Positions 6,810-32,312 of a stretch of DNA of 32,769 nucleotides are shown here, piece by piece. Under the pieces are notes generated by a model. It saw only the letters and a program-made list of their open reading frames with translations. It made no database searches and had not been told where the DNA came from. Where the stretch lies: positions 1 to 32,769 of IMG/VR virus record IMGVR_UViG_3300050821_007565. The stretch is one strand, 5' to 3'. The position numbers and the translations under genes are program-made. This DNA is from a virus. The number at the start of each line of letters is the position of its first letter. The first letter of the stretch is position 1.

Positions 6810-6935
6810 ATGGCACGCAGTTCTAAAGGTCGTGGTCAGTTATCTGGTATGCCAGTCATAAGACAGCGTACAGGTTTAATTAAAGTAAGTGAGGCTCGTG
6901 TCAATGGCAGCACCGAACGTGCAGCACGTAAGTAA
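6810..6935 (+). CDS. 41-residue basic protein before the terminase
   Basis: AAGGAG lies nine bases before the ATG. The protein begins MARSSKGRGQLSGMPVIRQR and is rich in Arg, Ser and Gly. It overlaps the start of the large terminase by 32 bases in another frame, and the GAGG used by the terminase lies inside it, so the two may be coupled. No domain is visible. It is unlikely to be the small terminase, being too short for the usual fold. Confidence 0.5.
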   Translation: MARSSKGRGQLSGMPVIRQRTGLIKVSEARVNGSTERAARK

Positions 6936-13236: not shown

Positions 13237-13776
13237 ATGAAAAAATTAATATTCTTATTGGCTATCCCCTTTTTATTCTTAGGTGGGTTAGTTCATGCTG
13301 AAAATAGTGCAGCTTCTTATGATAGGTTTTATTGGTCAGGTCAAGTATTTGTCCAAGCCTATAATAATGGAGCTTCTAGTATTGCTGTAAATAATGCTGT
13401 TGTCATTGATTCAAGCGTTGCTGTTGCAAAGATTGGATCAGGATCAGCTAATTTAGGGCAATATATTACAACATCTGCTACTACAGATAGCGTTTATATC
13501 TTTGGTGTTACAGATGAAGCAATTGCGGCTGGTGCATTAGGTCGTGTTTGTGTTCGTGGTCCTCATAAAGTTGTGTGGACTGGTGTAGGTGGTCCTGCTG
13601 CTGGTACTGTGTTCTCTAATGCGAGCACAACTGCTGGTCTAGTAGGAGGTACATCAACTGCTGCTGGTACTAATCATGGTATCTTAGGCAGAATATTAAG
13701 CGCAACAGTAACTACCGATACTGGTGATGCTGCTAATACTTATTGGGCATGGATTCAACCACAAGTTGAAAACTAA
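13237..13776 (+). CDS. Decoration-type virion protein with Sec signal peptide, 179 aa
   Basis: An AGAAAGGAG site precedes MKKLIFLLAIPFLFLGGLVH followed by AEN, a textbook Sec signal peptide with a cleavage site after residue 21 (VHA). The mature part is small, Gly/Ala/Thr/Val-rich and probably all beta, with a pattern like capsid decoration proteins (a VSGxxV-type FGVTDEAIAAGALGRVCVRG). Such a gene right after the coat would normally be cytoplasmic. The presence of an export signal is odd and recurs in six more genes here. Either it is exported to work outside the cell, or assembly happens at the membrane. Confidence 0.68.
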   Translation: MKKLIFLLAIPFLFLGGLVHAENSAASYDRFYWSGQVFVQAYNNGASSIAVNNAVVIDSSVAVAKIGSGSANLGQYITTSATTDSVYIFGVTDEAIAAGALGRVCVRGPHKVVWTGVGGPAAGTVFSNASTTAGLVGGTSTAAGTNHGILGRILSATVTTDTGDAANTYWAWIQPQVEN

Positions 13777-13791
13777 ACCATAACGAGTTCA

Positions 13792-13816
13792 TCCCCCTCT
13801 CAAGACAAAAGGGGGA
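13792..13816 (+). terminator. Stem-loop after the decoration gene (weak terminator or processing site)
   Basis: TCCCCCT (13792-13798) pairs with AGGGGGA (13810-13816) over seven pairs with an 11-base loop. It is followed by CTAATTT and not by a run of T, so it is not a full intrinsic terminator. Placed right after the capsid genes, it could stabilise their mRNA or let only part of the transcripts read into the tail genes. Confidence 0.45.
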
Positions 13817-13832
13817 CTAATTTAGGAGTATG

Positions 13833-14981
13833 ATGGTAAATGTAATAGTTATAGCAATACTGATAATACCTTGGCTGATAATTCCGTTTAATGATATTCC
13901 TGAACCTACCAGGTTAATTAAAGCAGCATTCTTTGATTTCGCAATGATGGGTGTTATCGTGATGGCATTAATTAATGGATTGAAGTTTGAGTATAAGAAT
14001 AAGTATTTAGCATGGTTTTCTATAGTAGTATTTGTAACAATGGGGCTTAATTGGTATTTACCATTATTGAAAGGGCAAGGTTATAACGCAGGAACAATTG
14101 AGTCATGCTTACATTATATACTTGCTTTAACAGCCTTTTATTTAATATGTTCAAACTTTGAACGTTCTGATTTCATAAGATGTGCAAAAGCTATGTGCAT
14201 ATCTTCAACATTAGTATCAATATTTTGTATATTTCAATCGGTAGGACTGGACCCTATGAGTCACCTAGCAACTTATACCTACAAAGAGCCTCGTCACATA
14301 GCTGCATTACTTGACCATCCAGATATGGTTGGTAACTACCTATGCCTAGTTCTACCGTTATTTATTTATTTTAATAAACCTAAATATTATATAGGTATGG
14401 CATTATGCGTAATAACATTATTATTAACTAAATCAAGTTTATCTGTTTTTTCTGCTGTTATAGGTATATCAATTTATACAACTATTAAGTATGCAGGAAA
14501 AAGGATGGTATTAGGGATAGTTGCCTTAGGATGTATTTTATTTTTTATATTCTGTTTTATTAATAAGGACTTTAATAAAATTAACAATGGTTTTACTGGC
14601 AGGACGGAAGCATGGAGCATGATGGTAAAACGTATGGACAATCCTTTATTTGGAAGAGGTTTAGGTATAGTTAAATCTCTTAATGTACAGACAGGTGCAT
14701 TAAAAGCAGATGGAGTTAATAGAGAAAACTTTTGGATGTTTGCACATAATGATTATTTAGAGACGTATTGTTCTGTAGGTGCAGTAGGTTTATTTTTACT
14801 ATTATTAGTCATAATAAATTCTATTCGTAGATTTAATTTTAAATCAGACAATAGAATAGGTTATGCTTATTTTGGATGTTTTTTTGCTTTCTTAATAGTA
14901 ATGTTTGGATCGTTTCCGATGGAATTTCCACCACTTGCTTTAAATGGTTTAATATTGTTCGCAGGAATTGAAAAAACATAA
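13833..14981 (+). CDS. Wzy/WaaL-type O-antigen polymerase or ligase, about 382 aa
   Basis: The protein has about ten hydrophobic segments, beginning VNVIVIAILIIPWLIIPF, and a large loop after the seventh or eighth. It contains FTGRTEAWSMM near residue 252 and AHNDYLETY near residue 304, the Arg and His of the Wzy_C/O-antigen ligase motif that handle the undecaprenyl-linked sugar. In bacteria such enzymes polymerise O-antigen or attach it to lipid A-core. In some phages they change host serotype and block superinfection. The gene lies inside the morphogenesis operon between the capsid and tail genes. The start at 13833 was chosen because GGAG lies only one base before ATG 13830. Confidence 0.78.
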   Translation: MVNVIVIAILIIPWLIIPFNDIPEPTRLIKAAFFDFAMMGVIVMALINGLKFEYKNKYLAWFSIVVFVTMGLNWYLPLLKGQGYNAGTIESCLHYILALTAFYLICSNFERSDFIRCAKAMCISSTLVSIFCIFQSVGLDPMSHLATYTYKEPRHIAALLDHPDMVGNYLCLVLPLFIYFNKPKYYIGMALCVITLLLTKSSLSVFSAVIGISIYTTIKYAGKRMVLGIVALGCILFFIFCFINKDFNKINNGFTGRTEAWSMMVKRMDNPLFGRGLGIVKSLNVQTGALKADGVNRENFWMFAHNDYLETYCSVGAVGLFLLLLVIINSIRRFNFKSDNRIGYAYFGCFFAFLIVMFGSFPMEFPPLALNGLILFAGIEKT

Positions 14982-14990
14982 GGAGTTAAT

Positions 14991-15833
14991 ATGCCACCGT
15001 CAACAGCATTAAAAAGTAAACCAGATGAGAATGATGTTACATTAATTGATTATAATGGAGCAATCCAGCAATTAATCGCTCAATCTAAAAAAGAACTTGA
15101 AGATATAAAAAATCAGATTCTTCTTGAAAATGTCAATTCAGTTAAACTAAAGGAAAAATTTCTTAAAGACACTCAAGAATTTGAAAGATGGAAACGTTCT
15201 GAAGAACAGAAATTCAAGAATCTATTAGCAGAAAAAACTAATGAGATAATAAAGAACAAGAATGAAATAGATATTCATGTTCAACAGCAAAGGCAGATTA
15301 CGGCTGACCTTAATTTACAGCATCAGAAATTTGAAGGTCTTAATGCTGAAAGAGTTAAATTAAAGGAAGAGCTTGTAAGAGTTGAAGGTATGAGGATTCA
15401 AGCTATTGATATGATAAAACAAGCTGAGACACAAAGAGCAGAGGTATTGACTCAGCAGAATAATGCTAACATGGCTTTAATTAAGGCTAAAGAGATAGAA
15501 GAAATAGCACACCAAGAGAATATTAGATTAACTAATCTTAATGATGCTCTTGAATCCAGGGCAAGAGAAATAGAACAAAAGGCAAAAGATTTAGGTAATT
15601 TAAAAGAGTTTGTTGAACCTAAGTTAAGAACAATTACGGAACAACAAGAAGCTTTAGAAGAGGCTAAGAAAGAAAATGATGAAAGGATAGCACAGTTACA
15701 GGCAAAGATTGAAGAAGAAAAAATTCTTTTTAAGTCTGTAATGGATAAAAAGTCAGAAGTTGAAAAACAAGAGAAAGAATTATTATCTAAAAAAGAAGAA
15801 TTTGGAAGACAGCAATTACTGGCAGGTAAATAA
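14991..15833 (+). CDS. Long coiled-coil virion-region protein, 280 aa
   Basis: From about residue 20 nearly to the end, the sequence is heptad-like with strong Lys/Glu/Gln content (for example QQRQITADLNLQHQKFEGLN and KEEFGRQQLLAGK), so it should form a long coiled coil. It begins MPPSTALKSKPDENDVTLID after a clear AAGGAG site. No enzyme motif or signal peptide is seen. Position between the sugar enzyme and the neck proteins suggests a structural spacer or an internal virion protein; it is too short for a tape measure. Stop and next start overlap as TAATG. Confidence 0.5.
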   Translation: MPPSTALKSKPDENDVTLIDYNGAIQQLIAQSKKELEDIKNQILLENVNSVKLKEKFLKDTQEFERWKRSEEQKFKNLLAEKTNEIIKNKNEIDIHVQQQRQITADLNLQHQKFEGLNAERVKLKEELVRVEGMRIQAIDMIKQAETQRAEVLTQQNNANMALIKAKEIEEIAHQENIRLTNLNDALESRAREIEQKAKDLGNLKEFVEPKLRTITEQQEALEEAKKENDERIAQLQAKIEEEKILFKSVMDKKSEVEKQEKELLSKKEEFGRQQLLAGK

Positions 15834-16165
15834 TGTCTCAGGTACGAGATCCAAACACAGGAGATAGGGACTCTATACAGAGGTTAGTTACTTCCAGAAT
15901 CAATGTAAGTATTCTACCTACCACCGTAGCTGTAGGAACATCTGCTTTAGCTTTACCAAGCAATCCTAGATCGAATAGAACATTCATATTAGTTCAGAAT
16001 CAGTCTGCTAATCCTGTTTTCATAGGGGATGCTTCTGTAACAACATCCAACGGTTATCAACTTAATCCTTTTAGCGACATTACAATCCCCTGTACTGATG
16101 GAGCAGTTATATATGCTATCGCAGGTTCAGGTGGTAATAATGTATTCGTAGGGGAAGGTGTCTAA
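15833..16165 (+). CDS. Small beta-rich virion-region protein, 110 aa
   Basis: It starts in a TAATG junction with the coiled-coil gene and ends in a TAATG junction with the adaptor gene, so it is translated as part of a chain. The protein, MSQVRDPNTGDRDSIQRLVT onward, has a short polar head and then alternating hydrophobic strands (RTFILVQNQSANPVFIGD, ITIPCTDGAVIYAIAGS). This resembles small beta-sandwich decoration or fibre-base domains in other phages ('FILVQN...PVFIG'). The role is not established. Confidence 0.55.
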   Translation: MSQVRDPNTGDRDSIQRLVTSRINVSILPTTVAVGTSALALPSNPRSNRTFILVQNQSANPVFIGDASVTTSNGYQLNPFSDITIPCTDGAVIYAIAGSGGNNVFVGEGV

Positions 16166-17280
16166 TGACATTCTTAGATGTGCAAAATCAAGTTGTTAAT
16201 ATGAGTTTAGTTCAGAGTCAAACAGCTCTTGTTCAATTCTCTATTCAATGGGCTATTAATAGAATAAGTCAATATTTTGAATGGCCTTATTATATGCAGA
16301 ACCAGGTTATAACAACCACTGCTCCGTATTCTACAGGTACAGTAGCTGTTACAAATGGGTCTGCCACGGTTACAGGGACTAATACCGTATGGACATCAGC
16401 AATGGTTGGAAGAAAGATACAAATAGGTGGTGATAATGCTTACTATTATGTATTAACTGTTAATAGTACAACAAGTATTACATTAGCTGTTCCATATCAA
16501 GGAACAACTCAATCAGGATCTACTTACAATATTTATAAGGATGAATACAAATTGTCTCCTGATGTTCAGGCATATAAAACTATTGTTCAGATACAAAATA
16601 GTTTAGCCATGAACGGAATGCCACCAACTAAGTTTGATAAAATATTCCCAACTCAAACATCCTTTTCTTCTCCTTATATAGAAGTTATGGAGGGAACTAA
16701 GTTAGATACATATGTTACAGGAACAGTATCGACAACCATTAATAGTGGGACAATAACAGGTGTTGGAACATCTTGGTCTTCTGTTGAAGGCCTAGGAAGA
16801 ATGACAGATATTATTATAGCAAGCAATAGATATACAGTTAAATCTGTTAATTCAGATACTTCTATAACAACTTATGAAAATGCTCTAGGTACGGTATCCG
16901 CATCATCTTATACTCTTAATTTAAGAAATATAAAAGTTCAAGTATTCCCAATTCCTAATGATCAAGAGAATTTGTATTATAGATATTTTCGTATGCCTGA
17001 TATTCTTGTTAATTCTTATGATGTTCCAGACCTACCTCAAGATTGGCATTGGATTATAGTGTGGGGTGCATTAAGTTGGATTTACCTTCAAAAGGGAGAT
17101 ATTGAGAAGGCATACACCCAGGCAGAAGCTAGATTCTTAGAAGGATTACAGAATATGAAGAAAAAGATTGGTAATCATGCAGCGGATAGAATATATCGTA
17201 GGAATTCTCAAGATAGAGGCAATGTATTCTTTGACGGTTTAGAAAAAGGAAGTTTTGATCGTAGGTATAGTTCTCCATAA
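16165..17280 (+). CDS. Head-tail adaptor-like protein with two beta insert repeats, 371 aa
   Basis: The helical N-terminus (MTFLDVQNQVVNMSLVQSQT) and the C-terminal helices with DLPQDWHWIIVWGALSWIYL and a following Lys-rich tail look like the adaptor/tail accessory proteins (P22 gp4, T7 gp11 style) that sit under the portal. In the middle are two related beta repeats: GTVAVTNGSATVTGTNTVW (about 57) and GTVSTTINSGTITGVGTSW (about 186), each followed by a G-x-x-I-x-x-x-x-x-x-Y-V segment and ending with T-x-x-S-Y. Such inserts decorate neck proteins. A GGGGAAGG purine run precedes the ATG. Confidence 0.65.
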   Translation: MTFLDVQNQVVNMSLVQSQTALVQFSIQWAINRISQYFEWPYYMQNQVITTTAPYSTGTVAVTNGSATVTGTNTVWTSAMVGRKIQIGGDNAYYYVLTVNSTTSITLAVPYQGTTQSGSTYNIYKDEYKLSPDVQAYKTIVQIQNSLAMNGMPPTKFDKIFPTQTSFSSPYIEVMEGTKLDTYVTGTVSTTINSGTITGVGTSWSSVEGLGRMTDIIIASNRYTVKSVNSDTSITTYENALGTVSASSYTLNLRNIKVQVFPIPNDQENLYYRYFRMPDILVNSYDVPDLPQDWHWIIVWGALSWIYLQKGDIEKAYTQAEARFLEGLQNMKKKIGNHAADRIYRRNSQDRGNVFFDGLEKGSFDRRYSSP

Positions 17281-18947
17281 TGAAGAAATTATTAATATTC
17301 CTTATATGTATTCTTATATGTTCAAACGCATACGCTAAATTGCCTTGGGATAAATATTCATATTTTTCAAATTATGGAGGTTTAAACGATAATCTTTCTA
17401 AACTAGAGATAGCAGATAATGAAGCAACTTCTATACAGAATGTTGTCTTTGATACAGGTGGTGCAATATCTAAGAGGTATGGATATCAGAATATAACAAG
17501 TCCTGGAGCAGCGTACGCTGTAGTAGCAGGTTCTTCTGCCATTACAGGTATTTATTATTATAAACAGTACGGTGGTAATAATTATATTGTAGCTTGTGCT
17601 AATGTAAGCTCACAATTGGAATGTTTCCAAAAGCAATATGATGCAAGTAATAATATACCTGTAGGTTCTTGGACAAGAATAGATGGAGGAAATTTACCTA
17701 CAACCTATAATAATAATCAATATGTAACATTTTCACAGGCTAATAATGTTCTTGTTATAACTCCCCAAGCAAGTAATGTAACAAACCCTTGGGCATGGCA
17801 AGCAACTGGTAATATATATACACTTACAAACAGTGCAAACGTAACTCCGTCAACGATATCTGTTTTTCATAAGAATATACTATTTATATCAGGAGATCCG
17901 AATAACCCATCAAGGGTAAGATATAGTGATTTAACGAATGGAATAACAGTATTCAACGCAACGGATTTCTTTGACTTAGATAAGAACAATGGTCAAAAGG
18001 TTACAGCATTAGTATCTGCTTATGGTAATTTATATATATTTGAAGACAACAGTATTTGGATGTTGACAGGTTCAAGTAACGCTGATTTTAGTTTACAGAA
18101 AATGGTTGATAATGTAGGAACCTTAAGTCAACAATCTATTTCAGTAATCAACGGTCATATATTTTTCGTTACGAAACAGAATGATATTGCTATTTATGAT
18201 GGTAACTATAGTGTTCAATTCCTTAGTAGTAAGATAAGGAATACAATTGGTGGAAATAATTTTAACAGGGCATCAACCGCCATAGGTCTTGGGTTCTCTT
18301 CTTATAAATATAAAGACCTAGATTATTATGTTGCCGAGTCATTAGTAGGAACTAATCAAAATAATTCTGTTCTTTTATATGATACCTATAGAAGTGCATG
18401 GACTGTATTTAGTGGAATAACTCCAAATGCTTGGGCTGTTGTAGACTCATCCAATGGTCAGAATATAATGATATTTGGTGATAATAAAGGTCTTATTTAT
18501 TTTTATCCAAATATAGGTACATACCATGATGTTAGTAACACTTGTGATGTAAATAATGTTTGTACAACAACTTCAGGTTCTATTTATTCATTTTATCAGA
18601 CAAAATGGTTCAGATATTCAGATGCAGCATTAGGTAATAAATACTTAAGATTATTAAAGACATACATATCAAATTCAACATTAGCAAGCTATCTAACAAC
18701 TACAGTAAAATCAGATTATAGTAATAGCGGTAATGTATATACTTACACATTCAATCCTTCTGGTGCGTTATGGGGAGTAGCAAAATGGGGAGTTGATATG
18801 TGGACAGGTGGTGGGTTGAATATTGATAGGGAAGAGCCTAATCTTGGTACTCAAATGTTTCAAATATTATATTCTAACAATATTGTAGATCAGGATATGA
18901 CTATACTTGGATGGGAATTATTTATAGAACCTACGGATACCATATGA
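17280..18947 (+). CDS. Nozzle/tail-tube B-like protein with Sec signal peptide, 555 aa
   Basis: The mature start, KLPWDKYSYFSNYGGLNDNL, followed by NEATSIQNVVFDTGGAISKRYG, matches the N-terminal signature of tail nozzle or tubular B proteins (P22 gp10 / T7 gp12 type: a 'GG-(M/L)-N ... A ... N-(V/F)-x-x-x-x-x-G-x-(L/I)-x-(K/R)-R-x-G' line). The rest has the repeated aromatic strands of a beta propeller. Ahead of this lies MKKLLIFLICILICSNAYA, a clear signal peptide that other nozzle proteins lack. It starts at a TAATG junction and overlaps the fibre gene by ATGA. How an exported nozzle could reach a virion made in the cytoplasm is unexplained. Confidence 0.7.
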   Translation: MKKLLIFLICILICSNAYAKLPWDKYSYFSNYGGLNDNLSKLEIADNEATSIQNVVFDTGGAISKRYGYQNITSPGAAYAVVAGSSAITGIYYYKQYGGNNYIVACANVSSQLECFQKQYDASNNIPVGSWTRIDGGNLPTTYNNNQYVTFSQANNVLVITPQASNVTNPWAWQATGNIYTLTNSANVTPSTISVFHKNILFISGDPNNPSRVRYSDLTNGITVFNATDFFDLDKNNGQKVTALVSAYGNLYIFEDNSIWMLTGSSNADFSLQKMVDNVGTLSQQSISVINGHIFFVTKQNDIAIYDGNYSVQFLSSKIRNTIGGNNFNRASTAIGLGFSSYKYKDLDYYVAESLVGTNQNNSVLLYDTYRSAWTVFSGITPNAWAVVDSSNGQNIMIFGDNKGLIYFYPNIGTYHDVSNTCDVNNVCTTTSGSIYSFYQTKWFRYSDAALGNKYLRLLKTYISNSTLASYLTTTVKSDYSNSGNVYTYTFNPSGALWGVAKWGVDMWTGGGLNIDREEPNLGTQMFQILYSNNIVDQDMTILGWELFIEPTDTI

Positions 18948-19813
18948 TAAAAAAATTATTATTAATACCATTATTGTTATTATCAACAGTAGCATTAGCC
19001 TCCGCTCCAACAAGAACGTATACCTATGTATCTCATACAGTTATAGACCCTAATCAGAATAATACAAATGAAAATAGTCTATATTCTTACCTTCAAAATG
19101 GTGTGGACACTTATGCAGCAGGTACTATAACAAACACAGCTATTAATAGTAGTGCTGCAATAGCATATAGTAAATTGAATTTATTAAATAGCGTTGTTAA
19201 TGCAGATATTAATTCGTCTGCTGCAATAGCGTATAGTAAGTTGAATTTGACAGGTAACATTGTTAATGCGGATATAAGTTCAAGTGCTGCTATTGTAGGA
19301 AGCAAGTTAGATCTTACCTCACCTGGAGCTATTGGTAGTACAGCAGCAAATACTGGATCATTTACAACATTAAAAGTAGGAACAACTCATCAGGGAGATG
19401 TTCTTTATGATAATGGAACTTCATTCGTAAGGCTTACTCCTGGTACGAATGGACAATATTTACAAACTCAAGGAGCATCTGCAAATCCTCAGTGGGCTAG
19501 TGTACCTGCTATATCAGGTATATTAGGTACATGGGCATCTGCTACGTTAGGTTCATCTACACAAGTAACCACAGATGGATTTCTAGTAGGTTATGCTATA
19601 GGAGATGGAGCGCATACCGATACTATCACAATAAAGACAGATTCAAGCAATCCTCCTACAACTATTCGTTCTCAAGTGATTACTGGAACAATAACAGCAG
19701 GTAGCTATTCTGTACCTTTATTCTCTCCTGTTAAGAAAAATGATTATTATTTAATAGAAAAATCAGGTACGGGTTCAAATTATACAGTTTATTTTATTCC
19801 ATTAGGAACATAA
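18944..19813 (+). CDS. Tail fibre-like protein A with Sec signal peptide, 289 aa
   Basis: It starts at the ATG overlapping the nozzle stop. MIKKLLLIPLLLLSTVALA is a signal peptide; the mature protein begins SAPTRTYTYVSHTVIDPNQN. Three repeats of the type (N-A-D-I-N)-S-S-A-A-I-A-Y-S-K-L-N-L follow at about residues 65-125, a known repeat of phage fibres, then a 'GTTHQGDVLYDNGTSFVRL' block that also occurs in fibre B, and a divergent C-terminal tip of about 100 residues. It is probably the first of a set of host-contact fibres. The export signal is the oddity. Confidence 0.68.
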   Translation: MIKKLLLIPLLLLSTVALASAPTRTYTYVSHTVIDPNQNNTNENSLYSYLQNGVDTYAAGTITNTAINSSAAIAYSKLNLLNSVVNADINSSAAIAYSKLNLTGNIVNADISSSAAIVGSKLDLTSPGAIGSTAANTGSFTTLKVGTTHQGDVLYDNGTSFVRLTPGTNGQYLQTQGASANPQWASVPAISGILGTWASATLGSSTQVTTDGFLVGYAIGDGAHTDTITIKTDSSNPPTTIRSQVITGTITAGSYSVPLFSPVKKNDYYLIEKSGTGSNYTVYFIPLGT

Positions 19814-20121
19814 TGAAATTCTTACTTTTAATATTATTATTCATCCCAATCACTTGTTACGCAGGAATCTCTAATACTGTGTCTTCAAATTGGACCATTC
19901 AATCACCACCAAAGGATGCCAATGAAGTATCTTTATACAACTATATGTATATTTTATATTCTCATTTTAATCAGTTGGAAGTTACAACAAATGATCCAAA
20001 TGGTGTAAGGAATACCAACATAGGAACATCTATTATCTATAATAACGCAGGTACGTATAAATTTTGTGTAGAAACAGCTAACCCTTCAGGAACGGTGTGG
20101 AAATGTTCAACTTTAAGTTAA
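19813..20121 (+). CDS. Short fibre-related protein with Sec signal peptide, 102 aa
   Basis: MKFLLLILLFIPITCYA is a signal peptide, followed by GISNTVSSNWTIQSPPKDAN and EVSLYNYMYILYSHF. The latter echoes the N-terminal 'NENSLYSYLQ' region of the flanking fibres, so this looks like a short relative without the repeat shaft and tip, perhaps a base or chaperone piece. Its start overlaps the end of fibre A by one base (TAATG). Its own end overlaps the start of fibre B. The C-terminal half has two Cys (CVETANPSG, WKCSTLS), which could form a disulphide after export. Confidence 0.55.
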   Translation: MKFLLLILLFIPITCYAGISNTVSSNWTIQSPPKDANEVSLYNYMYILYSHFNQLEVTTNDPNGVRNTNIGTSIIYNNAGTYKFCVETANPSGTVWKCSTLS

Positions 20122-20909
20122 TAATACTATTCTTATTAGTACCTACTATAGCTTTAGCTACTCCTCCTACTCGTACATACAATTATGTATCTAATGCAAC
20201 TATAGATCCGAACCAGAACAATACTAATGAGAATGCAATATATTCTTATTTACAAGTAGGTGTAGATACCTATGCTCCTGGTTCTATATCATCCTCTGCT
20301 ATTAATGCTAATGCTGCGATAGCATATTCACAGTTAAGTTTATCCAATAGTATTTTAAATGCAGATATTAATTCATCAGCAGCGATTGTAGCAAGCAAAC
20401 TTGATCTTACGTCACCTGGTGCAATAGGAAGTGTAGCTCCAAATACAGGGGCTTTTACAACTTTAAGTGCGACAGGAACCGTTAATTTAGGTACTACTCA
20501 TCAAGGTGATGTATTTTATGACAATGGGACATCTGTTGTACGTCAACCTCCAGGAACATTAGGACAGGTGTTGCAAACAGGAGGAGCAGGAGCTAATCCA
20601 AGTTGGGTTAATTCTTTATCAAGTGTTTCTGACTATGGGACAAGTTCAAGTGTATCAACAGCGTACCAAGGAACAAATACCAAAATAGCTTATGGCAATA
20701 TATCTGTCGCTAATAAATCATCAACTAATATCACTAATTTACCTTTTACTTCATCAACATCTTATAAATGTACCTGTAATCAAGTAGCAGGAAATTTAGG
20801 AAATATGAATGGTCCTTGTGCCGTTGCATATTCTAGTGGATCACAAGTAGCTATTGAGAACGCATCAGATACAACATTTGTTGAATCATGGATTTGTATA
20901 GGAACCTAA
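20103..20909 (+). CDS. Tail fibre-like protein B with Sec signal peptide, 268 aa (paralogue of A)
   Basis: The signal MFNFKLIILFLLVPTIALA is followed by TPPTRTYNYVSNATIDPNQN, matching fibre A closely through the S-S-A-A-I repeats and the GTTHQGDVFYDNGTSVVR block. After about residue 170 the two differ, and this one carries four Cys (CTCNQ, GPCAV, WICIG), a possible pattern for disulphides in an oxidising place such as the periplasm or outside. The ATG at 20103 was preferred over a GTG two codons upstream. It looks like a gene duplication with a changed tip, which fits fibre diversification. Confidence 0.65.
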   Translation: MFNFKLIILFLLVPTIALATPPTRTYNYVSNATIDPNQNNTNENAIYSYLQVGVDTYAPGSISSSAINANAAIAYSQLSLSNSILNADINSSAAIVASKLDLTSPGAIGSVAPNTGAFTTLSATGTVNLGTTHQGDVFYDNGTSVVRQPPGTLGQVLQTGGAGANPSWVNSLSSVSDYGTSSSVSTAYQGTNTKIAYGNISVANKSSTNITNLPFTSSTSYKCTCNQVAGNLGNMNGPCAVAYSSGSQVAIENASDTTFVESWICIGT

Positions 20910-21250
20910 TGCTAGCCAATCAAATAAAATTAGAGATAGCTAAAGAAGTCCTCACCAAGTCAGGTTGGGGTAAAGATATAGAATGTGTCCACTCATTATC
21001 TGAGGCTATAAAGAACGATAGATTTATTTTTGATATAGATAATAATGAAATCATATCTTTTGTTGCATGGGAAGATTTACAAGAAATCAATGGTCAAAAA
21101 AGAGTTTTTATAAAGAGTTTATGGATAGACCCAAGATACCGTAACCGTAACTATGTTATTAAGATTAGGACTATTTTAAGGAACAGATTTAAAGATACTA
21201 AAGGTGTTTGGCTTAATATAAAAAAAGATAAACTTATCGAGAGGATATAA
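20909..21250 (+). CDS. GNAT-like acetyltransferase, 113 aa
   Basis: AGGA lies six bases before the ATG at 20909, which overlaps the stop of fibre B (TAATG). The line RVFIKSLWIDPRYRNRNYVI near residues 63-82 is like the core GNAT strand and acetyl-CoA loop (a degenerate R-x-x-G-x-G/A with Asn in place of Gly). The upstream ISFVAWEDLQEINGQ fits the preceding strands. The substrate is unknown; fibres, host wall sugars or host proteins are all possible. Similar small acetyltransferases appear in the late region of many phages. Confidence 0.55.
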   Translation: MLANQIKLEIAKEVLTKSGWGKDIECVHSLSEAIKNDRFIFDIDNNEIISFVAWEDLQEINGQKRVFIKSLWIDPRYRNRNYVIKIRTILRNRFKDTKGVWLNIKKDKLIERI

Positions 21251-21252
21251 TT

Positions 21253-22242
21253 ATGAGATACCCTGTTTGGTTTAAAGGTAAACGTGGTGGGCCTAAAGGT
21301 CCTCTTGGTAACTTAATCTTTCCTGATGCTGCTAAGAATGATGGAGGTGCAGGTGCCGCTATCCAAGCTGCTGGGGATACTGTTTATAATAGAACAAAAC
21401 AGACTCCAGACGAGGCTTCTCAATATACCTCTTCATTTGATTTAGGTAAAGAACTAGAACAATACTTTACTGGTCAAATGACAGGACAGCCAACAGGTGC
21501 ATTGACAGCAGATCAGCAATTTCAGAATCAAGGTGATTTAAATAAGACATTGTATGACCAAGTATTATCTCAAGCACAAAATCCTACGGCTGGATGGCAA
21601 AGTACATTGCAACCTGAACTGCAACAGGCTCAAGACCAAATTAATAAATATTATAATGCAAGAGGACTTATTAATAGCGGTATCCCTATAGGAGATATGG
21701 GTACAGCAGGAGTAGATTTAGCTATTAAGAATGCCCAAAATGAGATGGCATATCAACAACAGTCTTTATCAAATGCACAGTCTTTAAGTGCAAATATTAA
21801 TCAAAATGCTAATCAAAATGTAGGTAATCTCTATAATCTATACGGTGCACAGCAAGGGTTTGGTCTTAATTCATTATCACGTCAGGCGACTGGTGCTAAT
21901 GCAGCAGCGCAATATCAGGCATATCCTTATCAGGCCCAACTTGGTTCCTATTACGGAGGAGTTGCAGCACAACAAGCATTACCAGGTCAATTAATAGGTG
22001 CAGCAGGGACTATGGCTGGTGCTGCTATGATGTGCTGGGTAGCTGCTGAGGTATTTGGTGGATGGGAAGATACTAGAACTCATAACGCACGTAAATTTAT
22101 AGCTAATATTGGACCGAAATGGTTTTTTAGGTTCTATCTTAAAAATGGTGAACGAATTGCATTATTCATTAAGAATAAACCGTTATTGAAGAATATGTTA
22201 AAGCCAGTGTTTGAGTTATTCGCTATGATTGGGGGTGCGTGA
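21253..22242 (+). CDS. Probable DNA-ejection (internal virion) protein, 329 aa
   Basis: The N-terminal two thirds are Gln/Ala/Asn-rich and helical (QDQINKYYNARGLINSGIPI), typical of ejection proteins. The C-terminus carries CWVAAEVFGGWEDTRTHNAR followed by GPKWFFRFYLKNGERIALFI, the 'CWVA ... R ... W ... G(E)R(I/V)A ... L ... P' tail block found in other phage virion or exported proteins. The GAGAGG site before the ATG is good. It should leave the capsid with the DNA and help form a channel. The order adaptor, nozzle, fibres, ejection proteins fits short-tailed phages. Confidence 0.62.
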   Translation: MRYPVWFKGKRGGPKGPLGNLIFPDAAKNDGGAGAAIQAAGDTVYNRTKQTPDEASQYTSSFDLGKELEQYFTGQMTGQPTGALTADQQFQNQGDLNKTLYDQVLSQAQNPTAGWQSTLQPELQQAQDQINKYYNARGLINSGIPIGDMGTAGVDLAIKNAQNEMAYQQQSLSNAQSLSANINQNANQNVGNLYNLYGAQQGFGLNSLSRQATGANAAAQYQAYPYQAQLGSYYGGVAAQQALPGQLIGAAGTMAGAAMMCWVAAEVFGGWEDTRTHNARKFIANIGPKWFFRFYLKNGERIALFIKNKPLLKNMLKPVFELFAMIGGA

Positions 22243-23363
22243 TGGGGTTATCAGATCCTTTTTCGACTACGTACCAAGGTAGTATGCAAGCAGGAGAGTC
22301 ATTAGGACAAGGTATACAGTCGGCTGCTGGTTCTATTGCTGATGCTATGCAGAAGAAACAACAACAGCAGAAATTTTTACAAATGATAGGGATGATGAAA
22401 GATTCTGGAGCAGTAACTACTGAATCTGCGCCCCTTTCTACAGATGAATATATATCTCAAGCTGAAAAGACAATAGCTGGTCTTGGCGATAAGCTTGGGG
22501 CTAAGGGGTTACAAGTAACTGGTTCTTCTGATCCTGAAGAGAGAAAAAAACAATACCAAGCTATTCTTGAACCATTAGGATTAGACCCTAAGCCTAAAGT
22601 TACTCCAAAATTAGATACCAATAAAATGTCAGGAAAATATGATATTTCTATGGACTCTGATGGGAAAATGACTTGGAAGACTAAGACTGTTGATCCTATG
22701 GCTGAAGAGATGAAACAAGAACGTATGGATATGCAGAAGGAAAAATTAAAAGATCAAGAATCAAAGAATTTGGATATAGAATTTGATAAATTAGATAAGA
22801 TTTCAAATCCTAACATAGCAACAAACAGAAGTCCATTAGGCATGGCTGGACGTGCTAATATGGCTGCTAATCGTGCTTTATTGACATTAGATAGTCCTAT
22901 GGTAACTAATCAAGAAGCTGGTAACGTCATGGCTGACGTTGCTTCTATATACCAGAATGGTTCTCCTACTGAATTTGGTATGTCTGAACAGGGGTATAAG
23001 ACAGTTTATGCTCAAGCACAAGCATTTAAACAATGGCTAACTGGTCAACCTCAAGATGCCTTGACACCTGAAGTTAAACAAAGGTTACAAGGTGTATTAA
23101 AAGGAATGAAACAAACAAATAAATCGGTTATTAAAGAGAATATGGACGCCTTAGAAACATTACATAGAACAACTATTTCTAAAGATCCACAAAGATGGAA
23201 AGATTATAGGAAAGATATAGAAAAGATGGGTGATTATAGTGATGATTCTTATAGTTCTAATGATGCTAGTAATATTGTTAAGTCTACTGGAATGGGTGGG
23301 TCTACAAAAACGTTATCTGATGAAAAATTTCAAGAAATGCTTAAAGCATCTCAAGGTGGTTAA
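22242..23363 (+). CDS. Second probable ejection/internal virion protein, 373 aa
   Basis: The start sits in a TGATG junction, and GGGGGTG precedes it. The protein starts MGLSDPFSTTYQGSMQAGES and is Gln/Met/Lys-rich with amphipathic helices (ADAMQKKQQQQKFLQMIGMM), like the P22 gp7/gp16/gp20 class that lies after the tail genes. The middle holds MAEEMKQERMDMQKEKLK, another coiled stretch. No enzyme motif is visible. It may oligomerise with its neighbours in the capsid core. The assignment relies on composition and position. Confidence 0.55.
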   Translation: MGLSDPFSTTYQGSMQAGESLGQGIQSAAGSIADAMQKKQQQQKFLQMIGMMKDSGAVTTESAPLSTDEYISQAEKTIAGLGDKLGAKGLQVTGSSDPEERKKQYQAILEPLGLDPKPKVTPKLDTNKMSGKYDISMDSDGKMTWKTKTVDPMAEEMKQERMDMQKEKLKDQESKNLDIEFDKLDKISNPNIATNRSPLGMAGRANMAANRALLTLDSPMVTNQEAGNVMADVASIYQNGSPTEFGMSEQGYKTVYAQAQAFKQWLTGQPQDALTPEVKQRLQGVLKGMKQTNKSVIKENMDALETLHRTTISKDPQRWKDYRKDIEKMGDYSDDSYSSNDASNIVKSTGMGGSTKTLSDEKFQEMLKASQGG

Positions 23364-23365
23364 AT

Positions 23366-25156
23366 ATGCCAGTTACTAAAGAACAAGCACAAAATTTACT
23401 AAATAAAGGATATAGTGAAGATGAAGTTGTGCAGTTTATGAAACGTACCGGCACACAAGACACTGGAATATCTAATCAAGACATAGCTCAACATCCAGTA
23501 AAATCATTAGTTAAAACTTTCATGCAACCTGCTGCACAGAGTTTGACTGGTAAAACATTGGAACAATCAATGCCTTATATTCATACTCCACAAGAGAATA
23601 CTCCTATGGGACGTGTCCAAGCCATTGGTGTTAATACAATGGCTGATGTTGGTGCTAAGATGGCGGATATAGCAACCACGCCTTCAACTTATGCTCTAGC
23701 ACCTGTGTTGAAATATTTAGGTATTCCTATTATGGGAGCTATAAATAAAGGTATAGTAAAACCTATACAAGAAGGAATAGCAGCATCTAAAGAATTAAAA
23801 CAAACGGCACAAACAGTAGGTTCTGCATCTTCTAAATCAGGAAGTATTACAAGAGCAATATCTGAAGGTACAGATAAATTAGTAAAACCATTAAAGGAAT
23901 CCTTAGATTCTGAAAAATCTAATTTTAGTGATATTAAAGAATCTTTACAAAAAGAAATATCTAATAAAAAAGAATTAAATACTTCTAAATTAAAAATGAC
24001 TAAAGAAGGTCAAGACGCAAGACGTGAACTTGTTATGTCAGATTTAGAACAACAGAAACAATCATTGACGGAGGCATTACAGGGAGAAGCAGAAGATATT
24101 ACAAAATATATGAAGGATGAAATTCCAAATAAAGTTAAAAGTATGAACGATGTTTTCGGTCAACATCTTGATGAAATTGGTTCTGAAATGGAGAAGAGTG
24201 GAAAAGGCATATCTCAATTAGATAGATACGGAATATTGAAAAGAACTTTAGATGAAGCTAATGATTTAGGAATTACCACTGGTAGAGCTAGAGGATTATT
24301 AGAAAAATTACACGCTGATGCAGCCAAAGCTGTTGAAGGTGAAACAGTAAATACAGGAATAATTGATGTTACAGGTAAACCAATTATCAGTAAGACATTA
24401 AGTAAAGGACAAGAATTAATACCATTCAGAGATTTTATTAATGAAACTAGAGAATTTAGACGTATTTTAAGTGAGTCTAAACTATCTGGTGTTAAGGGTA
24501 TGAATGATGAAGATATTGTAGGAGCAATGTATTATAAAAATTTAGATAAATATATGGAGTCTAATGTTAATGGGTATAAGGCATTACAGAAAGATTATGC
24601 ACCTGTTATTAATGCTATGAAAGCATCTAGAAGAATATTTAAGCCAGGGGATACTTATAGTGATGAACAAGGGGTTAATCTAATTAAGAAATACGCTATG
24701 GGTAAGACCACAGCAGGTAAAGAACAACTTTTAGGTGATATCCAGAAAGAATCTAGGTTTGGTAAAGGTGTTGGGGATGTAACTTCTAAAGCTAAATCTA
24801 TAGGAGATAAATTAAGTACAGTTACAGATACAGTAAAGAAGATGCCTAAGACATTACAAAAGAAATTTGATGCTGAATTAGAAGATATTAGAAGTACACA
24901 TGAGAAAGAAATTGGAGATTTAGAGAAAAGACTTGAAGAAGCTAAAGGTAAATCACAGATGAAAGCTGATACTATTAAAGACCAGATTGATGATATAAAC
25001 CATTTATCTGATATGAGAATAAGTCATGTAAAGAATGTAGCAGATAGGCTAGAAGAAATTAAAGCAAAAGGAAAAGTTTTATCTGTATTAGGAGCTTTAG
25101 GAGTTGAAGGAATAGGTAGGAAGGGGAAAGATGTTAAACATTTATTGTTTAACTAA
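23366..25156 (+). CDS. Third probable ejection protein, large coiled coil, 596 aa
   Basis: The N-terminal segment MPVTKEQAQNLLNKGYSEDE is a short helical hairpin (about 1-40) that other internal virion proteins share. Residues 150-330 and 470-570 are long Lys/Glu/Gln coiled coils. A less charged patch near 80-140 (STYALAPVLKYLGIPIMGAI) could enter membranes. No lytic transglycosylase motif is present. AAGGTGG precedes the ATG. It ends the first morphogenesis block; an 88-base spacer without a clear promoter follows. Confidence 0.55.
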   Translation: MPVTKEQAQNLLNKGYSEDEVVQFMKRTGTQDTGISNQDIAQHPVKSLVKTFMQPAAQSLTGKTLEQSMPYIHTPQENTPMGRVQAIGVNTMADVGAKMADIATTPSTYALAPVLKYLGIPIMGAINKGIVKPIQEGIAASKELKQTAQTVGSASSKSGSITRAISEGTDKLVKPLKESLDSEKSNFSDIKESLQKEISNKKELNTSKLKMTKEGQDARRELVMSDLEQQKQSLTEALQGEAEDITKYMKDEIPNKVKSMNDVFGQHLDEIGSEMEKSGKGISQLDRYGILKRTLDEANDLGITTGRARGLLEKLHADAAKAVEGETVNTGIIDVTGKPIISKTLSKGQELIPFRDFINETREFRRILSESKLSGVKGMNDEDIVGAMYYKNLDKYMESNVNGYKALQKDYAPVINAMKASRRIFKPGDTYSDEQGVNLIKKYAMGKTTAGKEQLLGDIQKESRFGKGVGDVTSKAKSIGDKLSTVTDTVKKMPKTLQKKFDAELEDIRSTHEKEIGDLEKRLEEAKGKSQMKADTIKDQIDDINHLSDMRISHVKNVADRLEEIKAKGKVLSVLGALGVEGIGRKGKDVKHLLFN

Positions 25157-25244
25157 AACTCCAATAAGCAATTGAAATTAATATGAATAATAAAATTATT
25201 TCTATCATACTCAAAGTATACCCTATAACCATTACGGTGTCAAA

Positions 25245-26477
25245 TTGAACATCTTAGCTCTAGATCCTGGTGGACTATACTGCGAACAGGCAAACGCTCT
25301 TTGGAAGAAAGGTGATACGGTAAAATACTGGACATCATGGGTTGCAGATCAGAAGTTTGACTGGTACTCCATAGGACTTGGATTTGGTAATTTAGAGAAG
25401 GTAAAATACGCTGCCGAATGGTATGAATGGGCTGATTGTATATTCGCTCCAGATGTTACAGGACAGGACGAAATAGCATTTCTTAGAACAATATACAAAC
25501 AAAAGTCTATATTTGGAAGTGGTTTAGCGCATAAATTGGAGCAGGATCGTTGGGGATTGAAGAAGGTCCTTAAGGATATAGATATTAAGTTTAGCCAGTC
25601 TGAACGTATTATAGGGATAGAAAAACTCAGAGAATATCTTAATACCAATAAAGACAAGTACATAAAAATATCAACATTTCGTGGTGACGTAGAGAGTTTT
25701 TACGCTAAAGACGCTAAGTCAGTTGATTTAAAGTTAGATGAACTAGCAGCAGCGAGGGGACCATTCAAGAATAAAATAGAGTTTATTGTAGAAGAAACCA
25801 TACCTTCTGATGTAGAGATTGGTGCTGATTTAATATTCAATGGTAATGAATATCTTAAACCATATATATTCGGATATGAAATAGGAAAAAAATTTTATTT
25901 CGGTAAGGTTAGTGAAGAGTTACCTACATTGCTTAAAGAAGGGATGGAAAAACTAAAACCAGTTCTTAAAAAATTAGACTATAGATCGTGTATATCAACG
26001 GAGATTAAATGTGTCAGTAAAACAGAAAGTTACTTTCTTGATATAACGTGTCGTCTCCCTAATCCTCTATGTGCTATTTATAACGAGTATATAACTAACT
26101 GGCGTGAGGTGGTATTAAATACGGGTTCTAAGAAGAATGTTAGACTGAACATTAAACATAAATACGTTGGAGCTTTTTTCCTTAATTCATATCACGGCAT
26201 GAGTCATTATGTGAAGATTGAAGTAGAAGAGAAAGATCGTTCTAATATCAAATTCGTAGTTGTAGGTGAGAATGACGGTCAGTTTTATAGTATTAAGGGT
26301 ACGGAAAAGATTGCGGTCGTCATTGCAGGTGGGGAAACAATTCAGGAAGTCATAGATACCATAAAGAAATATACAGATAAAGTAGACGCAGACGGTTTAG
26401 ATAAAGGGGCAGTACATGAAATTGATAAAATACACGATATTATTGCTGCTGGTAAGTCTATGGGCATCGACTTCTAG
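25245..26477 (+). CDS. ATP-grasp ligase-like protein, 410 aa
   Basis: The protein opens with a Rossmann-type MNILALDPGGLYCEQANALW, like the preATP-grasp domain of PurD and carboxylate-amine ligases, then LEQDRWGLKKVLKD (about 98), KYIKISTFRGDVESF (about 139), the acidic EFIVEETIP (about 181) and YFLDITCRLPNP (about 263). The order of Lys, Glu and Asp/Asn residues fits an ATP-grasp fold, which joins a carboxylate to an amine or thiol. The partner is unknown. The start is TTG, since no ATG or GTG lies nearby and no strong ribosome site is seen. Its end overlaps the LamG adhesin by 62 bases, so the two may work together. Confidence 0.65.
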   Translation: MNILALDPGGLYCEQANALWKKGDTVKYWTSWVADQKFDWYSIGLGFGNLEKVKYAAEWYEWADCIFAPDVTGQDEIAFLRTIYKQKSIFGSGLAHKLEQDRWGLKKVLKDIDIKFSQSERIIGIEKLREYLNTNKDKYIKISTFRGDVESFYAKDAKSVDLKLDELAAARGPFKNKIEFIVEETIPSDVEIGADLIFNGNEYLKPYIFGYEIGKKFYFGKVSEELPTLLKEGMEKLKPVLKKLDYRSCISTEIKCVSKTESYFLDITCRLPNPLCAIYNEYITNWREVVLNTGSKKNVRLNIKHKYVGAFFLNSYHGMSHYVKIEVEEKDRSNIKFVVVGENDGQFYSIKGTEKIAVVIAGGETIQEVIDTIKKYTDKVDADGLDKGAVHEIDKIHDIIAAGKSMGIDF

Positions 26478-28515
26478 TGTAGCCCAAAACACCCAATCAG
26501 GACCAACGACCCGTGGTGCATCATTAAATTTAACTGATGGTGGAGCTAATAGCTGTTTCCCTTATAAAGTAACTGTATCTTCTGGATCTTTGTCTTGTTC
26601 TGGAGGGACAGCTTCACTTACAACTGGTGGAGGTGTATCTTCAACATCTAATTCTGATGGTTCTCTGACAATAAGCCCAACCACAGGAGCAGTCGTCGCC
26701 TCTTTAGCCCCTGCACATTCTAATACATGGACCGGACAGCAGATCTTCAATACTACAGCCCCACAGGTAGGTACAGCTACGGTTACAACCCCCGCTGCCT
26801 TTGATGGCAGTAAGAATCTTATCTCAGGTTCTTATACTGGTAACACTACTAAGGTTGTGACCAACACAGGCACAAACACCCAAAATGCTCTTTTGAAGTG
26901 GGATGCTAACGCAAATGCCATATCTGCTGGGTTGATCGTAGGAACTTTGACAGATGGAGATATGTGTACTTATACGGCTTCAGGAACGGCATTTAACTGC
27001 AATACCGCGGTTCCTACAGGTTACTGGACGTTATCATCAACTAATTTATATTCACCTACCACAGATACGGTGACGACAGGTGTATCTTCTACGACAAGAG
27101 ATGTCTTTACGGTTAATGCGGATGGTGTCTTAGGATCAGGGGAATGGATTGATTATTCAGGTCCTGGGGCGTATACAGCAGATGCAAACACAGTAACATT
27201 ATTACATTTTGATGGAACCAATGGTTCTACTACTTTTACAGATAGTGAAAATACTCCAAAGACATTTACTGCTAATGGGGGTGCTGTTCTTTCTACATCT
27301 TCTCCAGTATTTGGTACAGCTTCTGGTTCTTTTATATCTGCAACTTCTTCATATATAACAACTCCTGATAGTGCTGATTTTCATTTTGGTTCAGGAAACT
27401 GGACAGTAGATTTTTGGGCTAGAAGAACCGCTACAAATACGGTTGGTCGTATTTGTGGTATAGGAGATAACGGATTAAATCATTGGTCTTTTATTATAGG
27501 ATATGAAGGGAATGATAATAATTTAATAACTCGTGTGGAAAATTCTGGTGGAACTCAAACTTCCACAATAGCTACTGGAGCTACAGATACGAATTGGCAT
27601 CATTATGCTTTAGTAAATAATGGTGGAACTGTAACTACTTATCTTGATGGCACATCATTAGGTACACAAACTCTAACTGGAAATTTAAGGAATCCTGGAA
27701 CTGCTTTAACAATAGGAAGAGAAGGAGATTATGCATCTGGTTATTTTAATGGTAAAGTTGATGAATTTAGAATTAGTAACGTAGCTAGGTGGACAACAAA
27801 CTTTACTCCTAATGGTATTTCATCTCCTAGGTTAGTCTTAAGTGCTAATGGTGTGCAAACATTTAAACTATATACTGATGGTACTAATGGAAACCAAGCT
27901 ACTTATACAGTAGGATCAACAAATGTTGAGACCCAGACAACGAGCAATACTACTTTAAATACTTCTCTTACAATGTCTGCTCAGAATATTGTTACAGATA
28001 CTTCTACCGGAACAATCATAGGAACAGGCACAACCCAAAAGTTAGGGTTCTTCAATGCAACGCCAGTAGTTCAACAGGGAGCAACAACTGATTTAGGCAC
28101 AGTATTATCTAATTTAGGTTTAAGGGCTTCTGGTACAGCTTATCCGATCACTACATCAGGAGCAGTCACCCTTACAGGTACAAACTCGATAACAACTCCT
28201 ACATTCAATGGTCAAGTCTACGGACATCAAACGGCCCCTACAGTGGCTAATAATGATTGTGGCTCAACAACACAAGGCACAATAGGCACGAAGTCAACTG
28301 ACATCGCTGGAAAGATAACGGTAGGAACCATAGCAGTAACAAGTTGTGCTATAACCTTTAACACGACATGGTCGACAGCTCCATTCTGTGTGGTTTCAGA
28401 TGATAGTCATGTATTAGCTGTGCAGCCTTCGACTTCAACAACAAAACTAACTATTACGGCATTAACAAATTTAGACAGCGATAATCTAACGTATGTCTGT
28501 ATGGGAGGAAATTAA
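26416..28515 (+). CDS. LamG-domain adhesin/tail fibre with Sec signal peptide, 699 aa
   Basis: The start ATG lies inside the ATP-grasp gene with AAAGGGG six bases upstream. MKLIKYTILLLLVSLWASTS continues SVA and gives a signal of about 23 residues. Residues about 30-250 are Thr/Ser/Gly-rich fibre-like repeats; about 258-456 is a concanavalin-like LamG domain (TVTLLHFDG at its start, WTVDFWARR and NWHHYALVNNGG in the middle, GKVDEFRIS at its end), which binds sugars or proteins. After it come more repeats and a Cys-bearing tip (about 600-699). It is probably a receptor-binding or surface adhesin protein. The export signal again departs from ordinary tail fibres. Confidence 0.68.
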   Translation: MKLIKYTILLLLVSLWASTSSVAQNTQSGPTTRGASLNLTDGGANSCFPYKVTVSSGSLSCSGGTASLTTGGGVSSTSNSDGSLTISPTTGAVVASLAPAHSNTWTGQQIFNTTAPQVGTATVTTPAAFDGSKNLISGSYTGNTTKVVTNTGTNTQNALLKWDANANAISAGLIVGTLTDGDMCTYTASGTAFNCNTAVPTGYWTLSSTNLYSPTTDTVTTGVSSTTRDVFTVNADGVLGSGEWIDYSGPGAYTADANTVTLLHFDGTNGSTTFTDSENTPKTFTANGGAVLSTSSPVFGTASGSFISATSSYITTPDSADFHFGSGNWTVDFWARRTATNTVGRICGIGDNGLNHWSFIIGYEGNDNNLITRVENSGGTQTSTIATGATDTNWHHYALVNNGGTVTTYLDGTSLGTQTLTGNLRNPGTALTIGREGDYASGYFNGKVDEFRISNVARWTTNFTPNGISSPRLVLSANGVQTFKLYTDGTNGNQATYTVGSTNVETQTTSNTTLNTSLTMSAQNIVTDTSTGTIIGTGTTQKLGFFNATPVVQQGATTDLGTVLSNLGLRASGTAYPITTSGAVTLTGTNSITTPTFNGQVYGHQTAPTVANNDCGSTTQGTIGTKSTDIAGKITVGTIAVTSCAITFNTTWSTAPFCVVSDDSHVLAVQPSTSTTKLTITALTNLDSDNLTYVCMGGN

Positions 28516-28516
28516 T

Positions 28517-28810
28517 ATGTGGTTACTATTTTTATTATTATTTAGTACATCAGTATTTGCACAGGATACGGGTTCAAATTGGTCAGACGTAACGCAGGTT
28601 CAACCTTCTACACCAACAACAACCACCTTTAGCGTTGAGATACCTAACGCTGATGTTAATTTAGTAATTGATTCTTTATGCACTAGTACAGGCAGTTTAC
28701 AGAATTGTACATCGGATGAAGCTAAACAAGTGATTATCCAATTTATTAACGATCAGGTAGTCGCTTATCAGAAGTCATTAACTAAAACAGCACCAGTGGA
28801 TATTCAATAA
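28517..28810 (+). CDS. Small exported protein, 97 aa
   Basis: GGAGG eight bases before the ATG at 28517 sets this start; a longer in-frame start lies inside the adhesin. MWLLFLLLFSTSVFA is a short signal peptide, followed by QDTGSNWSDVTQVQPSTPTT. A Cys pair (DSLCTSTGSLQNCTSD) may form a disulphide. It follows the adhesin at once and may be its partner or chaperone in the periplasm. No family is known. Confidence 0.55.
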   Translation: MWLLFLLLFSTSVFAQDTGSNWSDVTQVQPSTPTTTTFSVEIPNADVNLVIDSLCTSTGSLQNCTSDEAKQVIIQFINDQVVAYQKSLTKTAPVDIQ

Positions 28811-29078: not shown

Positions 29079-29373
29079 AAAACGCCTAATCGTCATTGAG
29101 ACAGAAAACAAGCGAAGGGATACTGATCTCAGAGAAGCCTTTCGTGTCATTGGTTGCTTACAAACGGATGTGGACAGCAAAACCTCTTTGCAAGACAATA
29201 AGATGTCAGAGATTAAAATTAATGCTGAAAAAATAAAAGCAGACGTTATATCGGAGGCTAATCAAACCATTGACCAAAAAATGAGGGACTATTTAACATG
29301 GACTGGTATCATAGTAACAGTTGTGGGCTGTATTGTGACGATCATCATTATGGTGATATTGAGGAAGACTTAA
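29065..29373 (+). CDS. XhlA-like membrane protein, 102 aa
   Basis: The charged N-terminal three quarters (MEDIEKRLIVIETENKRRDT onward) are coiled coil, and one membrane helix sits at the C-terminus (WTGIIVTVVGCIVTIIIMVI) with a short basic tail. This is the layout of XhlA-type holin partners of the haemolysin family in phage lysis cassettes. GGAG lies six bases before the ATG. It overlaps the receiver gene by one base pair junction TAATG. It should act at the inner membrane before or at lysis. Confidence 0.55.
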   Translation: MEDIEKRLIVIETENKRRDTDLREAFRVIGCLQTDVDSKTSLQDNKMSEIKINAEKIKADVISEANQTIDQKMRDYLTWTGIIVTVVGCIVTIIIMVILRKT

Positions 29374-32241: not shown

Positions 32242-32312
32242 TAAACCCTCCAATACTTGATAAGGTAGATTAAACAGAAAAGCATCACTAAAAGGATACC
32301 GAAGTCGCTCAT
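32241..32312 (-). CDS. 23-residue membrane microprotein
   Basis: A frame of 23 codons, MSDFGILLVMLFCLIYLIKY then WRV, is almost one membrane helix with a basic end. Its start overlaps the stop of the exported protein gene (ATGA), and its stop overlaps the next ATG (TAATG), so the chain is fully coupled. This exact tiling supports it despite its size. It resembles pinholin-like or regulatory membrane peptides, but no family is recognised. Confidence 0.5.
   Translation of the reverse strand: MSDFGILLVMLFCLIYLIKYWRV

Follow-up and report, generated by a model that had tools for sequence, protein, structure and literature searches.

The DNA analysed here (the window) is the entire IMG/VR record IMGVR_UViG_3300050821_007565, 32,769 bases of an uncultivated virus, and carries on its plus strand an operon of virion genes. 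Terminase, portal, capsid protein, adaptor and nozzle genes occur together in this operon, as in the structural module of short-tailed phages. Since profile annotation recognised no tail tube, sheath or tape-measure genes in it, the particle would, judging from the genes, be short-tailed. Seven proteins of the region begin with predicted Sec signal peptides, namely a capsid-adjacent protein (13237), the tail nozzle (17280), two fibres (18944 and 20103), a small fibre-like protein (19813), a LamG adhesin (26416) and a small protein (28517). Genes are named here by their start positions, and the coordinates are collected in Table 1. All seven open reading frames (ORFs) are present with these starts and have ribosome-site-like leaders or stop-start overlaps.

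Signal peptides were called with a purpose-written, rule-based type I scorer that evaluates the charge of the n-region, the hydrophobic core and the -3/-1 rule. For calibration, 34 textbook signal peptides of Escherichia coli were used, which score 4.66-6.36. Six of the seven predictions are strong (5.76-6.97) and combine a basic n-region, a core of 8-15 residues and small residues at -3/-1 with the absence of a lipobox or twin arginine; that of 28517 is weaker and has no basic residue. The hydrophobic runs, c-region included, are 12-19 residues long with A-x-A-like ends, and the mean Kyte-Doolittle values of the cores are 2.97-3.90 versus 2.43 ± 0.36 in the E. coli set. Cores as hydrophobic as these suggest a likeness to co-translationally targeted precursors. 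The same scorer found no signal peptide on the terminase, portal, scaffold, capsid, adaptor and ejection proteins. The earlier note on this DNA had claimed signal peptides on at least seven virion-region proteins, encoded beside ordinary unsignalled portal, coat and ejection genes, and both claims were confirmed, the first with the weaker case of 28517.

For the estimation of chance calls a score of at least 5.2 and a product of at least 80 amino acids were used as thresholds, and the control set consisted of 89 other loci (relatives and controls), most of which belong to the same capsid family. Calls were obtained for 7 of 42 ORFs in the window versus 11 of 1551 in the controls, with at most two in any control locus. 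The seven comprise six of the reported proteins and a minus-strand ORF at 32309. When only the capsid strand is counted, the numbers are 6/24 versus 4/1110 (binomial P ~1e-9), and one of these four control calls is a capsid protein whose start was set too far upstream. Composition shuffles of the signalled proteins passed in 0-10 of 2000 cases. Judged by these sequence features, the proteins very probably carry functional Sec signal peptides, and their export is strongly supported.

Table 1. Features of the virion region of the window, with predicted signal peptides (a slash marks the predicted cleavage site).
Feature	Position	Strand	Predicted signal peptide / mature start	Score	Profile match or remark
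Terminase large subunit	6889 start, within 6889..10670	+	none		PHROG 38, 7.4e-71
Portal	8595 start, within 6889..10670	+	none		PHROG 156, 9.3e-4
Scaffold-like protein	11319 start	+	none
Major capsid protein	12239..13219	+	none		PHROG 9953, 6.1e-49
Capsid-adjacent protein, 179 aa	13237..13776	+	MKKLIFLLAIPFLFLGGLVHA / ENSAA	6.24	predicted cleavage after residue 21 (AENSA)
Wzy_C-domain membrane enzyme (O-antigen ligase/O-oligosaccharyltransferase superfamily)	13830..14981	+			PF04932, 1.1e-13
Coiled coil protein	14991 start	+
ORF 15833	between coiled coil 14991 and adaptor 16165	+
SU10-type head-tail adaptor	16165..17280	+	none		PF24175, 8.7e-10
Tail nozzle/'phage stabilization' (P22 gp10-like), 555 aa	17280..18947	+	MKKLLIFLICILICSNAYA / KLPWD	6.97	predicted cleavage after residue 19
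Fibre, 289 aa	18944..19813	+	MIKKLLLIPLLLLSTVALA / SAPTR	6.18	N-terminal module RTYTYVS..NQNNTNEN; SAAIAYSKL repeats
Small fibre-like protein, 102 aa	19813..20121	+	MKFLLLILLFIPITCYA / GISNT	5.76
Fibre, 268 aa	20103..20909	+	MFNFKLIILFLLVPTIALA / TPPTR	6.30	N-terminal module shared with 18944
GNAT-like protein	20888 start	+
Three putative ejection/internal virion proteins (21253, 22239, 23366)	21253..25156	+	none		Mx8-like position
LamG adhesin, 699 aa	26416..28515	+	MKLIKYTILLLLVSLWASTSSVA / QNTQS	5.76	PF13385, 8.3e-20
Small protein, 97 aa	28517..28810	+	MWLLFLLLFSTSVFA / QDTGS (weak)	4.47

Two relatives of the window phage were available for comparison: G001 (IMGVR_UViG_3300020147_000017, 41.7 kb), reached by a search for the fibre motif NQNNTNEN, and G003 (IMGVR_UViG_3300025087_000192, 39.1 kb), reached via terminase alignment. 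Their capsid proteins are 68% and 56%, and their nozzles 62% and about 50%, identical to those of the window. The earlier note had named signal peptides in homologues as the check to be made, and within this lineage they are present: in both genomes the capsid-adjacent protein, the nozzle, the small fibre-like protein and the fibres are signalled, and the terminase, portal, scaffold, capsid, adaptor and ejection proteins are not (the ejection homologues being found in G001 and partly in G003). The homologues of 13237 are 48-49% identical and keep the mature start ENSA (MKSIKFMLVALFVVAFSPVVRA / ENSAT in G001, MRNLKMLLAVAFVLAFTGIVKA / ENSAT in G003). The nozzle signal peptide of G001 ends in LPSLILALFFVLSHNSWA / QVPWI; that of G003 is MIKRLILTAILLFSSLATANA / GVLWS. 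Signalled homologues were likewise found for the fibre 18944 in both relatives, for 19813 in G001 (46%) and G003 (32%), and for the fibre 20103 in G001 (50%). A fibre of G003 with the signal peptide MKILFLTLAIIFGLQLNCLA / NPSNS carries a C-terminal Gp10_C baseplate-type domain (2.7e-25). In the position of the adhesin, G001 encodes a signalled protein with a similar N-terminal segment and a different C-terminal part, and the counterpart in G003 (L112:12339-14189) has only an irregular hydrophobic start; a small signalled protein of G003 stands at the place of 28517. Between the genomes, identity is 20-59% in the signal peptides and 28-63% in the mature parts, which in most pairs are the better conserved; even so, 7 of the 10 pairs have their predicted cleavage points at exactly the same alignment position. 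The signal peptides sort the virion proteins by place: inner proteins are unsignalled and outer proteins are signalled. Searching IMG/VR with the nozzle or the capsid protein as single queries gave no match, and a portal motif search returned only the already known fragment and unrelated loci. G001 also encodes an integrase and Cro/C1-type helix-turn-helix (HTH) proteins (L104:7087-8583), from which the lineage is probably temperate.

By profile homology over most of its length, the nozzle belongs to the P22 gp10-like or 'phage stabilization' family. Comparison by hhalign gave 99% (4.7e-19) with MaAM05 and 92-94% with other sets (92% for the set including BUCT555), with unrelated controls near 0, and the G001 homologue matches PHROG 3287 'virion structural protein'. 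None of 13 nozzle homologues outside the lineage (MaAM05, CRP-1, CRP-13, HMO-2011, DS1, Mx8, BUCT555, ppBjS10J-1, MT835830 and four Manatee Spring phages) has a signal peptide at any in-frame start within 45 codons. Because these homologues lack it, the nozzle signal peptide is, as sequence comparison indicates, an addition and a derived trait of one lineage. After cleavage, which for G003 was placed behind TANA, two residues past the choice of the scorer, 14 residues precede the conserved GGLN in all three signalled nozzles; the unsignalled ones have 14 (CRP-1, CRP-13 and MW202701), 13 (DS1), 16 (HMO-2011) or 11 (MaAM05). The nozzles of HMO-2011, CRP-type roseophages and SAR116 phages are homologous structural proteins with the same GGLN start region, but are unsignalled, and their N-terminus corresponds to the mature N-terminus in the window lineage. 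A single nozzle gene is present in each of the three genomes, and no ATG or GTG start lies near the mature nozzle N-terminus in the window; therefore the virion nozzle, if present, would most likely derive from an exported precursor. Prediction of the nozzle fold from the three-sequence alignment yielded an unusable model (predicted local distance difference test, pLDDT, 37), and sequence and profile searches of the PDB returned no nozzle match and nothing noteworthy.

The signalled capsid-adjacent gene is adjoined in all three genomes by a gene for a Wzy_C enzyme (window 13830-14981, L105:1713-2834 and L112:1045-2181). PF04932 is found in all three products and H306 and R258 are invariant, which places the enzyme in the Wzy_C superfamily (WaaL/Wzy/PglL); tblastn against the phage collection gave no match. 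Wzy_C membrane enzymes are known in temperate phages such as Pseudomonas phage D3 and VarioGold (PMC9658991). In VarioGold the gene belongs to a putative moron cluster whose transcription runs opposite to that of the late genes (PMC9658991), whereas in the three genomes compared here it is part of the late operon, beside the gene for the capsid protein. As a conjecture, the enzyme may glycosylate exported virion proteins, or it may modify the surface polysaccharide and in this way keep fibres from sticking in the periplasm or just after release.

The window broadly shares the order of terminase, portal, capsid, adaptor, nozzle, GNAT-like and ejection genes with the Mx8-like module of Myxococcus phage Mx8, Stenotrophomonas phage BUCT555, Bradyrhizobium phage ppBjS10J-1 and MW202489. 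The capsid proteins of this group are 26-33% identical to that of the window (26-31% for BUCT555, ppBjS10J-1 and MW202489). Their nozzles are homologous, but neither these nor the capsid-adjacent proteins are signalled, and in the Mx8-like phages no signalled fibres are encoded between the nozzle and the GNAT protein, and no Wzy_C gene adjoins the capsid gene. The window phage combines a known structural module of tailed phages with a new trait. In filamentous phages (Inoviridae), the virion proteins carry Sec signal peptides and assemble at the inner membrane. However, Inoviridae have single-stranded DNA and no head and are extruded without lysis, whereas the window encodes a tailed phage with double-stranded DNA, a terminase, a capsid and inner proteins free of export signals. 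Its terminase and its unsignalled major capsid protein of tailed-phage type do not fit Sec-dependent assembly of the filamentous type, which goes with a signalled major coat protein and a pI/pIV-type export apparatus. The author of the earlier note knew of no established phage family of this kind, and no tailed phage with exported nozzle and fibres was found in the open-access papers searched. In HTVC021P, uvMED S30-C28, P-RSP2 and a Rhizobium phage, the fibre and adhesin domains stand on proteins that have no signal peptide. Phage-encoded hypervariable proteins are reported to lack the signal peptides of their bacterial counterparts (PMC6199706), which accords with the general expectation of unsignalled phage proteins that the window lineage breaks.

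The explanation that is preferred here, with a rough probability of 0.55, is that the outer virion proteins gained cleavable type I Sec signal peptides and that the inner proteins stay cytoplasmic. We infer that export and cleavage by signal peptidase I actually take place. The exported proteins are probably parts of the virion, in which their mature forms would be present, and the chances that the final joining takes place outside the cytoplasm appear about even. Heads would assemble and package DNA in the cytoplasm, and nozzle and fibres would be exported through SecYEG, probably co-translationally given the very hydrophobic cores; once freed of their signal peptides by signal peptidase I, they would fold either in the periplasm or on the membrane's outer face. 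If the nozzle is part of the virion and comes from an exported precursor, heads must meet exported nozzles and fibres. The joining might be placed at the membrane, in the periplasm or at lysis; the two halves would join once heads reach that compartment, and the opening of the inner membrane at lysis would be the simplest route. Assembly across an intact membrane is possible, the one observation pointing to it being the split between inner and outer proteins. More tentative is the full two-compartment morphogenesis, with cytoplasmic heads, exported nozzle, fibres and head-surface protein, possible glycosylation of these by the Wzy_C enzyme in the periplasm and completion of the virion outside.

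Several points weigh against the export of outer virion parts. Tailed phages assemble in the cytoplasm, and joining at lysis would leave little time. A TTG codon lies one residue past the nozzle cleavage site and, although it has no clear ribosome site, might act as a weak internal start. The virion role of 13237 is putative: the term 'decoration-like' of the earlier note has the capsid-adjacent position as its evidence, and profile comparison with ten sets of capsid-adjacent proteins gave no link. A structure prediction for 13237 from the three-sequence alignment (pLDDT 33) was unusable. Cysteine content does not discriminate either. An excess in the signalled virion proteins (about 22 cysteines in 2070 mature residues versus 4 in 2685 residues of unsignalled proteins, some being gained or lost in pairs) was considered as support for export and dropped because unsignalled nozzle homologues have 2-12 cysteines. 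Finally, no host was found, since scans of genome collections and terminase-profile searches (369 and 289 genomes) gave distant phages only.

The signalled proteins might instead be displayed or secreted and act on the surface of cells that are infected or lysogenic, in adhesion, aggregation or superinfection exclusion, rather than in the virion. The lectin-like and glycine-rich adhesin domains, the surface-polysaccharide-type Wzy_C enzyme in the operon and the probably temperate nature of G001 (integrase, repressor-like HTH) agree with this, and it suits the fibres; however, the fibre domains are those of virion fibres, and the nozzle is encoded in the head-tail operon. Because the nozzle is single-copy and its homologues are structural, it counts against display or secretion alone, which we consider unlikely. 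Among the three readings proposed in the earlier note (membrane assembly, surface display and secreted adhesins) the nozzle disfavours the last two on their own.

The same N-termini could also be uncleaved anchors or entry peptides, which tether virion parts to the membrane while these assemble, or enter the target membrane during infection. Their cores exceed those of typical E. coli signal peptides in hydrophobicity, but the runs are short and end A-x-A-like, the cleavage site is kept where flanking residues vary, and the mature nozzle start coincides with the start of unsignalled homologues, so that anchoring has a low probability. Somewhat lower still is that of leaky or dual targeting, in which a fraction of the proteins escapes export and is assembled in the cytoplasm and the signal peptide has a side role, for example in binding or blocking surface receptors. 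It would reconcile signal peptides with the known cytoplasmic assembly; against it, the very hydrophobic cores would favour efficient co-translational export, and the TTG codon is the sole candidate start near the mature nozzle N-terminus. Chance, misplaced ORF starts or an assembly artefact might be suspected in a metagenomic contig with some small proteins and a purpose-written caller, but control rates are far lower, three diverged genomes agree in gene order and trait, and 14.9 kb of a further record, L108, are identical to G003; such an origin is highly improbable.

If outer virion parts are indeed exported, the last steps of tailed-phage assembly can occur in another compartment, disulfide bonds or glycosylation on virion proteins become possible, and a signal peptide does not exclude a virion protein in viral metagenomes. 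To our knowledge, particle completion outside the cytoplasm, as suggested here, is known in no other tailed phage; if assembly there were shown, it would be a new assembly mode for these phages.

Further observations were made in the genomes compared. The PHROG 5107 label 'lysis, amidase' looks wrong, as the profile here matches 'phage stabilization' proteins of the nozzle type that are encoded in head-tail operons (L006:12482-14065 and L009:23049-24629). The 274-kb record of Microcystis phage MaAM05 (L002, MW495066.1) contains proS, lepA, ftsH, hppA and glgX around the virion module and looks like a bacterial chromosome with a prophage. An in-frame insertion of roughly 330 residues, which matches a LAGLIDADG homing endonuclease and is probably an intein, interrupts the terminase of G003 (L107:8726-11389), and an HNH endonuclease gene lies between the nozzle and fibre genes of G003 (L112:6137-6772, minus strand). 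The contig L109, which ends before any nozzle gene, encodes a terminase 59% but a capsid protein only 26% identical to those of the window, an indication of module exchange near the lineage.

In the window, a 410-amino-acid protein is encoded directly 5′ of the LamG gene (25245-26477); an ATP-grasp-like family assignment, made by eye only, is possible, and no counterpart stands at the corresponding place in G001. Rfam gave no match anywhere in the window. Downstream of 28517, small membrane and lysis-type genes follow on the plus strand. A stand-alone response-regulator receiver domain is encoded at 29370-29747, and a lipobox (LSGC) protein at 30300-30590, perhaps a spanin, lies 3′ of the adhesin together with small membrane proteins and a possible lysin at 30598. 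The protein at 32309-32611 on the minus strand, which like the lipobox protein would be exported as well, carries a predicted type I signal peptide (MRILLVLILLTGTCWA / KDSS).

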